A stretch of DNA of 50,392 nt from the NCBI GenBank assembly GCA_017631635.1, contig JAGBSX010000031.1, forward strand, positions 1 through 50,392, in the 5' to 3' direction. This DNA is from Clostridia bacterium (GTDB taxonomy: Bacteria; Bacillota; Clostridia; Christensenellales; RUG350). The position numbers and the translations under genes were made by a program. The notes under the pieces are model-generated. The model was not told where the DNA came from. It worked only from the letters and a program-made list of their open reading frames with translations, and searched no databases. This document shows, one piece after another, positions 393 to 41,525 of the stretch. Every line of letters starts with the position of its first letter. The first letter of the stretch is position 1.

Positions 393-542
393 TAAAAATA
401 TAATAATTTTTTTATTTTGCCAAATATTGAGGTTGATTTTGGACAGTATACAATATATAGTAGTGCGTATCTTCTCATTATTTTTATTATGCGTGAGAGT
501 GGCTACTTCTATGCCTTTGCGAGAGGAGGTAGACCTCCTACA
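393..542. other. Intergenic spacer with a small hairpin
   Basis: I see no convincing gene here. A short open frame starting at 417 runs into the repeat array and has no ribosome binding site or recognisable protein. A strong hairpin, AGGAGGT-AG-ACCTCCT, lies at 524-539, just before the left boundary of the repeat array. Confidence 0.5.
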
Positions 543-890
543 ATCTATCTCTTTTCCTCAACTCGCCGACAGGCGAATATAACTTGTCGTCAGACAAATA
601 TAACTTGTCGCAGACAAATATAACTTGTCGTTAGACAAATATCACTTGCCCTTAGGCAAATACAACTTTGCACCAGCAAAATATAACTGCGTAGCAATAT
701 CACTTTGCGCTAGCAAAATATAACTGCGTAGCAATATCACTTTGCGCTAGCAAAATATAACTGCGTAGCAATATCACTTGCCGTTAGGCAAATATCACTT
801 TGCGCCAGCAAAATATAACTGCGTAGCAATATCACTTTGCGCCAGCAAAATATAACTGCGTAGCAATATCACTTGCCGATAGGCAAAATA
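543..890 (+). repeat. Tandem mini-hairpin array 1
   Basis: About 17 units in tandem. Each is a small hairpin (stem 3-5 bp, loop 3-4 bases), separated by a nearly constant linker of the form AATATMACT. Stem pairs vary but always match: TTGTC/GACAA, TTGCC/GGCAA, TTTGC/GCAAA, TGC/GCA and TCGCC/GGCGA. Loops are mostly of the form GNNA (GTTA, GTCA, GATA, GCTA, GCCA). The left boundary (AATCTATCTCTT, then CCTC and ACTCGCC) is shared with the array at 1608. The array lies between the queH terminator and the spacer upstream of the secreted-protein gene. Confidence 0.85.
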
Positions 891-920
891 AAAATCACGC
901 TGCCTTATAGTTAGCGTGAT
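885..920 (-). terminator. Rho-independent terminator after queH
   Basis: Read on the minus strand, ATCACGCT (920-913) pairs with AGCGTGAT (901-894), followed by a T-rich tract (TTTTTATTTT). It lies 24 bases beyond the queH stop. Confidence 0.75.
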
Positions 921-1543: not shown

Positions 1544-1607
1544 AATATAATAACGTGTGCGCCTATGCGACACCACGCAGGTCGTCTTGGGGGGTTTTGG
1601 TTCGAGG

Positions 1608-1780
1608 AATCTATCTCTTCCCCTCCACTCGCCGACAGGCGAATATCACTTGCCGATAGGCAAATATCACTTTGCGCCAGCAAAATATAACTGCGTAGCA
1701 ATATCACTTGCCGATAGGCAAATATCACTTTGCGCCAGCAAAATATAACTTGTCGTTAGACAAATCTAACTGCCGTCAGG
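1608..1780 (+). repeat. Tandem mini-hairpin array 2
   Basis: About eight units of the same kind as at 543-890, with the same left boundary sequence and the same leading unit (TCGCC-GAC-AGGCGA). The units then read TTGCC-GATA-GGCAA, TTTGC-GCCA-GCAAA, TGC-GTA-GCA and so on. The right end runs directly into the stop codon of mscL, which is convergent with the array direction. The array lies between mscL and the start of queH. Confidence 0.85.
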
Positions 1781-5156: not shown

Positions 5157-5197
5157 CGCATCATCATACGACCAATCAAAAAAGCGACGATATTAGT

Positions 5198-5513
5198 GCG
5201 TCAGTAATAGGGATTATTGCTGACGCGCTAGTTATATTTGCCTATCGGCAAGTTATATTGCTAAAGCAGTTATATTTTGCTACGCAAAGTTATATTTACC
5301 CACAGGGTAAGTTGTGGCAAATATAATATAACTTTTTCGAGAGAAATATAAGAACCTGCTAAAGCAGAACCTTGAATTTTTCTCTCGAAAAATATCACGC
5401 AAGATACTTGCATATCACTTTTAGCCATAGGGCTAAAAATATCACTTAAATCTTTAATTTTTGTGGATAAGAAAAGCACACTACGTTTCACTTTTAGTGA
5501 AGTATAGTGTGCT
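5198..5513. repeat. Composite repeat element, copy A
   Basis: Fills the gap between two convergent genes. Parts in order: a hairpin GCGTCAG...CTGACGC (5198-5226); reverse-orientation mini-hairpin units with AGTTATATT linkers (stems TTGCC/GGCAA, TGC/GCA, TTTGC/GCAAA, TTACCC/GGGTAA); a core beginning GTTGTGGCAAATATAATA; a 14-bp inverted repeat TTTTTCGAGAGAAA with its complement; forward linkers around hairpin TTTTAGCC-ATAG-GGCTAAAA (5419-5438); TGTGGATAA (5462-5470, a perfect DnaA-box sequence); and a terminal hairpin at 5475-5513 (AGCACACTA...TAGTGTGCT). The same parts in the same order recur at 29193-29528. From 5514 to 5605 I see nothing further. Its two ends could serve as terminators for the convergent genes. 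Confidence 0.8.
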
Positions 5514-5605
5514 ATAATTTATTATGGACTAAAAATCCCTATGGAACTCGGCTTCTCGTCGCTTTTATCGTGATTTTATTGTCAATCAATGATAGTCAAC
5601 CTCTC

Positions 5606-27852: not shown

Positions 27853-28049
27853 TTAGGATAAGTTGATTTTATCAATATATATTCTATCTTTATCCTATTA
27901 GTTATTATACTTTTAAAATCAATCCTTTGGGTTTATCTTGGATATAAATACTATATATAGTGGTGTTTTGTACTTATCAACATATCCACATTACTTATTA
28001 TTATTGTTATTTTCTAATTAAAGATTTATATATTATTAGGAGGCTAAAT
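27853..28049 (+). promoter_or_regulatory. dnaA-dnaN spacer with DnaA-box-like sites
   Basis: AT-rich spacer. It holds adjacent one-mismatch DnaA boxes TTATCAACA (27974-27982) and ATATCCACA (27982-27990), and a palindrome ACTATATATAGTGG (27950-27963) that recurs upstream of rpmG. It ends with a strong AGGAGG ribosome binding site for dnaN. Confidence 0.5.
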
Positions 28050-29156
28050 ATGAAATTATATTGTTCAGGGTTGGAGTTGAGTGAAGCAGTACTTCGCGTT
28101 AGTAAGGCTATGCCTATTAAGAAGACTATGTCTATACTTGAAGGTATCAAATTGTCTGCTATAGGATCTACTCTCACTATCACAGCCACCGACCTAGAAT
28201 TGGCTATAGAAAGAAAAATAAGAGCAGATATAAAACTAGAAGGAGAGGCAGTAGTACCAGGTAAATTTTTCTGTGAATTTATCAAAAAACTATCTAACGA
28301 AGAAATAGAAATATCTACTCACGACAACAAAATGTCTATCAAGTATGGAGATAGTGTAGGAGAACTACAATGTCTCAATCTAGACGAATTTCCTCCTATT
28401 AGAAAGGTAGAAGAGGATACTTTCTTCACTATATCTCAACGTAAGTTTATGAAACTCATAGACCGTACTATTTTTTCTGTATCAAATGAAGATTTGAGAC
28501 CTATTTTGAAGGGATGTCTAATAGAGATAGATAGTAATCTACACAACGTCAGAGCAGTAGCCCTAGACGGATTTAGACTAGCAGTATGTGAAGAAGAGAT
28601 ATTATCTACCGGTAAAGATATATCCGTGATAATACCTGCTAGATCTTTGGCAGAGATATCCAAGATAATAGAAGATGAAGATATACCATGTACGTTGTAT
28701 ATACAAAACAACTACGTAATGCTAGATTTGGATCACACAAAGATAACCTCAAGATTGATAGAAGGTGACTTTATACAATACAAAAAAATAATACCTAGAG
28801 AATTTAATACTTTAATCACAGTCAACAAATCTCAAATGGAGACAGGACTAGAGAGAGCATCATTAGTATCAAGAGGAGATAAGAACAATCTCATCAAACT
28901 AGATATAAAAGAAAAGAATATGTCTATCACTAGTAATAGCGAACTAGGTAATATAAATGAAAACGTAGTAATATCTCTAAATGGAAAAGATATAAGTATA
29001 GCATTTAACGTAAAATACTTCACAGAAGCATTTAGAGTGATAGAAGATGAATTTATACAACTAAATATGTCCTCTTCGACTGCTCCTTGTATAATAAAAC
29101 CAATGGAGGGAGAAAAATATCTATATATGATACTCCCAGTTAAAATGCTCGGCTAA
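28050..29156 (+). CDS. dnaN: DNA polymerase III beta subunit (sliding clamp)
   Basis: The ring-shaped clamp that tethers the polymerase to DNA. The 368-residue protein starts MKLYCSGLELSEAVLRVSKAMPIKKT and has the three-domain clamp pattern: GKFFCEFIKKLSNEEIEI; LDGFRLAV; and ending APCIIKPMEGEKYLYMILPVKM. The ATG at 28050 has AGGAGG eight bases upstream; the open frame extends to 27960 through the spacer. Codon use is more A/T-rich than in most of the window. It is not followed by recF, gyrB or gyrA but by a repeat element and the gene desert. Confidence 0.97.
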   Translation: MKLYCSGLELSEAVLRVSKAMPIKKTMSILEGIKLSAIGSTLTITATDLELAIERKIRADIKLEGEAVVPGKFFCEFIKKLSNEEIEISTHDNKMSIKYGDSVGELQCLNLDEFPPIRKVEEDTFFTISQRKFMKLIDRTIFSVSNEDLRPILKGCLIEIDSNLHNVRAVALDGFRLAVCEEEILSTGKDISVIIPARSLAEISKIIEDEDIPCTLYIQNNYVMLDLDHTKITSRLIEGDFIQYKKIIPREFNTLITVNKSQMETGLERASLVSRGDKNNLIKLDIKEKNMSITSNSELGNINENVVISLNGKDISIAFNVKYFTEAFRVIEDEFIQLNMSSSTAPCIIKPMEGEKYLYMILPVKMLG

Positions 29157-29192
29157 TAAAAATTAAACTAAAAAATAAACATACCTGCAAAA

Positions 29193-29528
29193 GCCGAGTC
29201 CCTACTAGGGATTCGGCAACTAAATAAATCCTTACGGATTTGTGATATTCGCCTGACGGCAAGTGATATTACCTATCGGCAGTTATATTTGCCTACGGCA
29301 AGTTATATTGCTTACGCAGTTATATTTTGCTAACGCAAAGTTTTATTTTCCCTTTCGTGAAAGTTGTGGCAAATATAATATAACTGCGACTGCAAGTCGC
29401 AATCTAACGCAAAACTTATGTGCATATCACTTTTAGCCACAAGGCTAAAAATAAAACTAAATAATTTTAATCTTTTATGGATAATAAAAGCCCACTATAC
29501 TTCGCTTTAAGGCGAAATATGGTGGGCT
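29193..29528. repeat. Composite repeat element, copy B
   Basis: The second copy of the element at 5198-5513. It holds hairpin GCCGAGTCCC...GGGATTCGGC (29193-29217), hairpin AAATCC-TTAC-GGATTT (29226-29241), and reverse-orientation mini-hairpins (GCC/GGC, TTGCC/GGCAA, TGC/GCA, TTTGC/GCAAA). The shared core beginning GTTGTGGCAAATATAATA follows, then hairpin TGCGACT-GCA-AGTCGCA and hairpin TTTTAGCC-ACAA-GGCTAAAA (29431-29450). Next is TATGGATAA (29476-29484, a one-mismatch DnaA box) and the terminal hairpin AGCCCACTAT...ATGGTGGGCT (29489-29528). It lies just after dnaN and may help terminate its transcript. Confidence 0.8.
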
Positions 29529-29625
29529 ATATTTTTATATTAAATTAAAAATCACTTATAAGATATCCATAAAATAGGTATGTTTTTTTATTATCATAAT
29601 ATAAAAAAAGTAAGATAAGAAAAAG

Positions 29626-29655
29626 TTATTAAATATATATATATATATTTAATAA
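29626..29655. repeat. Perfect 30-bp AT palindrome
   Basis: The half-site TTATTAAATATATAT is followed directly by its exact reverse complement. It contains only A and T and could extrude as a cruciform or act as an unwinding element. Confidence 0.85.
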
Positions 29656-30003
29656 AATAAAGATAAACAAACGTTATAAAAAAATACAGCAAAACAGGGT
29701 GGAGTAAGAAAAAATAAAAAAAACGTATAAAAAGAAAAAATATAGAAAAAAAAATAAATTTTCTATGCGCCACCATATATTTATAATAAAATTATACAAA
29801 AATATCAGCACTCTCAAAATTAAAACGCAAAAAATATAATATATCATAGTGCATAATTATAATAGTTTCACAAAAACAGTAAAAAACGGCTCAAAAAAAT
29901 TTAGGAGAAAGAAAATATACTTTCTTAACAATCTATAAAAATAAATAAAAAATTATAAAAATATATATGCACCTATATAAAAATTAGTAAAAATACGCAA
30001 AAA

Positions 30004-30050
30004 AGTTTCACGTAGAACAATTTTTAGATTAAAAAGTTTTTCGTGGAACA
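30004..30050. promoter_or_regulatory. Pair of parS-like 16-mers
   Basis: AGTTTCACGTAGAACA (30004-30019) and AGTTTTTCGTGGAACA (30035-30050) match the parS consensus TGTTTCACGTGAAACA at 13 and 12 of 16 positions by eye. They start 31 bases apart, about three helical turns. No parA or parB gene is in the window. Confidence 0.45.
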
Positions 30051-30750
30051 TATAATTTTAGGTGTCTTTATAAAATATTAAAAAAATAGTATTATAGTAG
30101 TAGTGCAAAGGATAAAAATAAATAAAACTATTCTCTAATTGAAAATGTAAAAAAAAAGAATATTAAAGAAATAAAAAAATACAACGTAATAAAAAAAATG
30201 AAAGCAAAGAGTGTACTTTTTTAATATAATGCTAAAAATAAATAATATCACTAGTCGCAGTATAAATAATATTGCACTTATTATTATATAAAAAACAAAA
30301 CGTAAAAGTGTAATTTTTAGCCAAGCATCAGGTATGAACGAAGATAAGAGCCTTTTAATATAGTGAGGATACTAAAAATGTAAGAAATAAATAAAAATAA
30401 AAAATCAAAGCGAGAAGATAGATAAAAAAAAGATAGGTGATAAATAAAAGAAGATTGTGAAGTGTTAAAATAAAAAACAATCTATCTCCTTAGTTGGTTG
30501 ACAAAAAGAGGGATAGAGAGTAATATATAATGGTTGGTATAAATATATATTTATAAATCGTATTATATAAAATCCAAAAAATTAAAAGTAGTACCCTATT
30601 AAGTAATAAAAAAGAAGCAGTAGTACAAAAAGAAAAGTAAATTGTAAAAAAATAAAAACATAAGTTTTTAATAAACAAAGTTATAGAATTAAACTACTTT
30701 GATTAAAAATTAAAAAAACGTGCCTAGTAGCAGATAAAAAAAGAGGTAAG

Positions 30751-41362: not shown

Positions 41363-41525
41363 ACTAAAAAACTAAATCGTACCCAAGACCACAAGGGGCT
41401 ATTCTTAAAAATCTTGTGCAGGTATAGAGCAATACAATCGTAGTATTTTGCCTCCGTACTTGTCAAGTGCGGAGGTTTTTTTGTGGCGAGGGTATACCCA
41501 AATCTATAAAGGAGGTTTGAGAAAA
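41363..41525 (+). promoter_or_regulatory. L10 leader with attenuator hairpin
   Basis: This leader ends in a perfect 11-bp hairpin (CCTCCGTACTT, loop GTC, AAGTGCGGAGG, 41451-41475) with a T-tail (41476-41482), 43 bases before rplJ. This is the position and form of the ribosomal-protein L10 leader attenuator, which is controlled by the L10(L12)4 complex. An upstream helix with AAGACCACAAG and CTTGTGCAGGT could be the antiterminator or L10 site. Confidence 0.75.

Follow-up and report, generated by a model that had tools for sequence, protein, structure and literature searches.

Copies A and B, two structured elements in the window (the whole stretch of DNA analyzed here, 50,392 nucleotides), are likely short non-autonomous members of a mobile family that inserts precisely in the hairpin loops of intrinsic terminators, with a protein of the IVP/S23 family, encoded by longer versions, as the putative driver of movement. 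The family is real and structured, and it is probably mobile. The best reading is that the element is a variant of the IVP/IVS-type elements that is aimed at terminator loops, which leaves a wholly new class of mobile element possible. A first-pass annotation of the window from the sequence alone had described a composite element and missed the main points, i.e., the insertion in terminator hairpins, the IVP/S23 and passenger genes, and the match to Gut-1 RNA.

Copies A and B belong to a high-copy family with two arms

The source genome is of the gut Clostridia type, has a size of 1.32 Mb, and contains at least 25 core-bearing copies, including copies A and B. With up to 3 mismatches allowed, the core was found at 25 places in this genome compared to 0 for a reversed-pattern control, and copy A had 78 BLAST places; therefore, this is a high-copy family, and the previous label of a two-copy element was wrong. 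We note that all genomes in this study are draft MAGs and that many element copies are located at contig ends. The two copies were also annotated too short: copy A extends from ~5191 to 5555 and copy B from ~29187 to 29575, each inside the arms of a host terminator (Table 1). Neither contains a gene.

Left of the core, each GTTATATT/GTGATATT linker is followed in turn by a mini-hairpin, and these hairpins vary in sequence; the linkers reverse direction at the core, and those on the right are of the AATATAAC/AATATCAC type. A hairpin with AGGGATT in its loop or close to it forms the left end, while the right end consists of AATCCCTA followed by 12 to 20 bases. These observations support the earlier proposal of a composite element with two arms oppositely directed around a core, and all parts named at that time (mini-hairpins, core, the TTTTAGCC/GGCTAAAA hairpin, a GTGGATAA-type 9-mer, and the terminal hairpin) are present at the places described in both copies. 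In the two window copies, the loops of the TTTTAGCC/GGCTAAAA hairpin are ATAG and ACAA, and the terminal hairpin has a length of 39 to 40 nt.

The ORF at positions 27960 to 29156 reads as dnaN, which encodes the DNA polymerase III beta clamp; copy B follows it directly and precedes a very AT-rich intergenic stretch (about 29530 to 30680). Elsewhere in the window, positions 41364 to 41490 on the + strand match L10_leader in Rfam (49.2 bits).

Table 1. Positions of element and host terminator features in the window
Feature	Positions	Strand	Basis or remark
Left arm of host intrinsic terminator around copy A, AAAAGCGACGA	5180..5190	+	pairs with 5556-5566
Copy A left terminal hairpin TTAGTGCGTCAG...CTGACGCGCTAG, AGGGATT in loop	5193..5231	+	
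Copy A left arm, Gut-1-like array of mini-hairpins with four GTTATATT linkers	5231..5310	+	Gut-1 model matches on sister arrays
Copy A core GTTGTGGCAAATATAATATAAC, linker direction flips here	5311..5332	+	25 genomic copies, 0 in control
Copy A right arm, three hairpins parted by AATATCAC linkers, including TTTTAGCC/GGCTAAAA	5333..5438	+	
Copy A DnaA-box-like 9-mer TTATCCACA, probably not essential	5462..5470	-	16/24 short copies
Copy A right terminal hairpin with compensatory changes	5475..5513	+	covariation
Copy A right end AATCCCTATGGAACTCGGCTTC, complementary to AGGGATT of left hairpin	5534..5555	+	
Right arm of copy A host terminator, TCGTCGCTTTT	5556..5566	+	flank-pairing tests
Left arm of host terminator around copy B, AAACATACCT, downstream of dnaN	29177..29186	+	
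Copy B left terminal hairpin, GCCGAGTCCC/GGGATTCGGC type	29193..29217	+	
Copy B left arm, six GTKATATT-type linkers with mini-hairpins	29242..29362	+	
Copy B core GTTGTGGCAAATATAATATAAC	29363..29384	+	genome core search
Copy B right arm	29385..29450	+	covariation
Copy B right terminal hairpin	29489..29528	+	covariation
Right arm and T tract of copy B host terminator, AGGTATGTTTTTTT	29576..29589	+	
Core-less left-arm array with a Gut-1 RNA match at 692-763	541..900	-	Rfam model
Second core-less left-arm array with a Gut-1 RNA match at 1696-1772	1600..1775	-	Rfam model

Pairing of the element stems is under selection

Selection for pairing had been claimed based on compensatory differences between copies A and B. 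Across 24 copies, the helices contained 49 cells changed on both sides compared to 17.2 in shuffles; because some differences look like the exchange of whole hairpin modules, these cells do not represent 49 independent events. The covariation score was 0.192 for the 24 copies compared to 0.090 when shuffled, while slid structures scored at most 0.043. The pair 192/226 in the terminal stem is CG in 14 copies, AU in 9, and GC in 1, and the inner pair 204/214 is GC in 14 and AU in 10. Relative to shuffled sequence, copies A and B as RNA had fold z scores of about -10, as did the other strand of copy A and copy A as DNA. These results support that pairing of the element stems is under selection, and both compensatory changes noted earlier are among those found over the 24 copies.

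The elements nest in the loops of intrinsic terminators

In 19 of 25 copies with both ends resolved, the two flanks form a duplex enclosing the element, with a T tract after it, compared to 8% for swapped flanks (0/20,000 permutations). The mean flank-duplex energy was -18.1 kcal/mol, while that of swapped flanks was -12.0 +/- 0.7 (0/10,000 permutations). The two tests were performed on partly overlapping sets of 25 elements, and the 19/25 derives from the stricter score, which seeks a T tract on the right only and on its own is no proof of orientation, though the printed sites agree. Together, these data show that the elements nest in terminators in one orientation. The flanks of most long versions (see below) also pair as terminators.

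Empty sites were identified at several loci; except for L076 and L096, they come from diverged species. The terminator stem CCGCCGA/TCGGCGG around L076 is present around a short loop in the sister genome G311, and the sites orthologous to L062 and L065 in sister species contain plain terminators. At L096, the terminator that holds the element has an identical empty counterpart nearby on the same contig, although this pair may represent a local duplication or an assembly effect; the comparison places the insertion inside the 10-nt loop CCGTTTAAGA, with an ambiguous overlap of 2 to 3 nt at the junction. L063 was left out of the empty-site evidence because its flanks do not pair and its right side is rearranged. 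Distant IVP loci (mostly below 60% identity) have inverted arms, but their terminator nesting was not above the swapped control; therefore, we limit the claim of nesting to this element family.

Long versions encode an IVP/S23 protein and differing passengers

Long versions are organized in the order left arm, core, right arm, a gene for an IVP/S23 four-helix-bundle protein, usually a passenger gene, and right end. The IVP, a protein of 117 amino acids of the 23S_rRNA_IVP/S23 family that matches PF05635 (3.4e-29) and the solved structure 2rld, is intact to the right of the core in L073, L078, L096, L097, L102, L112, and L179. For 12 IVP genes, mean dN was 0.050, mean dS was 0.832, and the median ratio was 0.06, and therefore, IVP is under strong purifying selection. 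Two copies have a broken IVP (a frameshift in L063 and a stop in L037), a pattern that fits decay but would also fit a dispensable gene. Just beyond the decayed IVP-bearing copy L037, an ORF starting ~540 bases to the right of the core reads as an integrase-like (rve-type) transposase.

L096 and L112 encode IVP alone, while most long versions carry a passenger, each a different one. The passengers of L073 and L078 are proteins without known identity; that of L097 is an Ltp lipoprotein; that of L179 is apparently, by reading only, a methyltransferase; and L057 has a HIT domain protein alongside an IVP remnant. L102 has two passengers, i.e., a DUF6150-like protein (below the family cut-off) and a GIY-YIG protein that matches PADLOC UzuA (7.7e-52). 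Four other passengers had no match in the defence library.

An intact IVP and its cognate arms are located at C3:35638-35940 in the source genome. Inverted repeat arms enclose 17 of 32 IVP loci from diverse genomes of the order, compared to 1/32 for distant flanks and 4% for swapped pairs, and therefore, the two-armed design is common to IVP genes. Many IVP genes, including those at L110, L116, L117, L118, L186, L190, and L194, have simple tandem-repeat arrays (e.g., AGTGGTCAGTGGTC and GAATTCGGAATTC) on one side and the inverted arrays on the other. L121 and L122, at the starts of contigs C52 and C46 of G000, are tRNA-linked contig ends with identical starts and have different IVP genes at the same position, each after hairpin arrays with a different linker.

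The family is patchily distributed across gut Clostridia

Other gut Clostridia-type MAGs contain exact cores in 43 stretches. Within the order, the element occurs in 8 of 396 genomes from several families, i.e., patchily. The best identity between copies of G000 and those of G149, a genome from a different family, is 0.91, while the gene flanking L062 has 76 to 83% identity within G149's own genus; this difference fits horizontal spread, although strong constraint could contribute. Carriage by phages was rejected, as no exact core match was found in viral contigs. We also noticed that the left flank of L064 in G149 contains another dispersed repeat family, present at roughly 30 places.

A candidate mechanism and its alternatives

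We suggest that IVP, a ring-forming protein related to Avd of diversity-generating retroelements (DGRs), would bind the arms of linkers and hairpins, either as RNA or as single-stranded DNA, and drive integration at single-stranded hairpin loops with the help of host enzymes. In this scheme, IVP would mobilise the short copies in trans. Insertion in a terminator loop would leave both stem arms in place and, therefore, spare the host gene. No catalytic recombinase or nuclease was found to be shared by all copies. Among 11 carrier genomes, reverse transcriptase (RT; RVT_1) was undetected in 7, including G000 and G149, and the IS200/IS605 transposase (Y1_Tnp) in 8, including the 25-copy genome and G149. 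Thus, neither is an obvious universal helper, and both were rejected as such because they are missing from most carrier genomes.

A more far-reaching interpretation is an unrecognised class of mobile gene cassettes that have the IVP/S23 ring protein only and no known recombinase, integrate in the loops of terminator hairpins by recognising their single-stranded structure, and carry exchangeable passengers, including defence-like ones; it would explain both Gut-1 and the function of IVP. We regard it as a serious contender while leaning somewhat against it. In integron cassettes with attC hairpins, an exchangeable passenger gene similarly lies beside a structured recombination site. By contrast, the copies described here are scattered at terminators rather than arrayed and carry their own IVP gene, and no integrase was seen in the long versions read.

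Conventional MITEs mobilised in trans by a DNA transposase such as IS200/IS605 TnpA, with IVP as a mere passenger, would likewise be short, multi-copy, structured, and non-coding, and the subterminal hairpins, the AGGGATT/AATCCCT pair near the ends, and the strong fold as single-stranded DNA are in agreement with this explanation. Nevertheless, we consider it unlikely given the distribution of Y1_Tnp described above, the fact that neither fixed terminal inverted repeats nor a constant target duplication was apparent at the junctions read, and the observation that IVP is strongly constrained, common to the long versions, and the sole gene of L096 and L112.

An RNA-level retro-element, in which the Avd-like IVP cooperates with a trans-acting RT and the folded RNA is copied into cDNA that enters terminator loops, is also improbable. 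Avd of DGRs is a reported homologue of the IVP fold (PMC10053308), group IIC introns target intrinsic terminators (PMC4424553), and the fixed orientation relative to the terminator and the strong fold as RNA point in the same direction. On the other hand, RVT_1 was undetected in those 7 of the 11 carrier genomes, which also distinguishes the element from DGRs, although the assemblies are incomplete and movement may have occurred in another host. Group IIC introns themselves insert after the terminator motif (PMC4424553), whereas the element inserts within the loop, and they are ribozyme retroelements with an RT, neither of which was seen for the element: there was no Rfam intron match at the gathering threshold in the window or the loci and no RVT_1 in G000 or G149.

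Element arrays match the Gut-1 RNA

Gut-1 (RF01706) has been described as a candidate non-coding RNA known exclusively from human gut sequence (PMC2864571). The mini-hairpin arrays of the element match its covariance model. However, Gut-1 covers only a stretch of the left arm of the element and was presented as a free-standing non-coding RNA. The gathering threshold was reached only by the two stretches within core-less arrays listed in Table 1 and by L007, the single further match among 20 element loci searched with Rfam; copies A and B were below it. The two core-less arrays come after two genes and resemble remnants or expanded forms of the element.

The listing of Gut-1 in Rfam, together with compensatory changes that demonstrate selection on structure, is compatible with a host-functional regulatory RNA or enlarged terminator that is immobile and multiplied because it is useful. 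The flanks and genes are, however, unrelated at each copy, the occurrence is patchy across families, sisters have empty terminators, and versions with passenger genes exist, all of which make this explanation very unlikely. A DnaA-titrating or replication-linked repeat can be dismissed almost entirely: the perfect 9-mer in 16 of the 24 short copies, i.e., its conservation in most of them, and the position of copy B just after dnaN are in its favor, but copy B and seven further copies have lost the box, it was not seen in those long versions that were read, the copies are dispersed over many contigs, and the DnaA-box reading proposed in the first-pass annotation gained no further support.

Relationship to rRNA intervening sequences and implications

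Returning to the preferred interpretation, a variant of IVP/IVS-type elements aimed at terminator loops, the closest parallel lies in the 23S rRNA intervening sequences (IVS) of, e.g., Coxiella and Leptospira, which encode S23p/IVP, replace hairpin loops, and have long been proposed to be mobile (PMC4990558). Likewise, the long versions, as opposed to copies A and B, encode a PF05635 four-helix-bundle protein, and the loop of a transcribed hairpin is replaced. Different from the IVS, the element resides in intrinsic terminators of protein genes rather than in a helix loop of 23S rRNA, has two arrays of linkers and mini-hairpins, reaches up to 25 copies per genome, and includes passenger genes and short non-autonomous versions. 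In the literature searched, we found no prior description of terminator-nested or IVP-carrying mobile elements.

To our knowledge, IVP/S23 proteins, familiar for decades from rRNA intervening sequences, still lack an agreed function, and these sequences have been guessed, but not shown, to be mobile. The clear ends, defined target, empty sites, and IVP-only and cargo-bearing versions of the family described here make the question of IVP function and mobility testable. The family also offers an explanation of the Gut-1 RNA, and it suggests that terminator loops are safe landing sites through which passenger and defence genes could move among gut bacteria.
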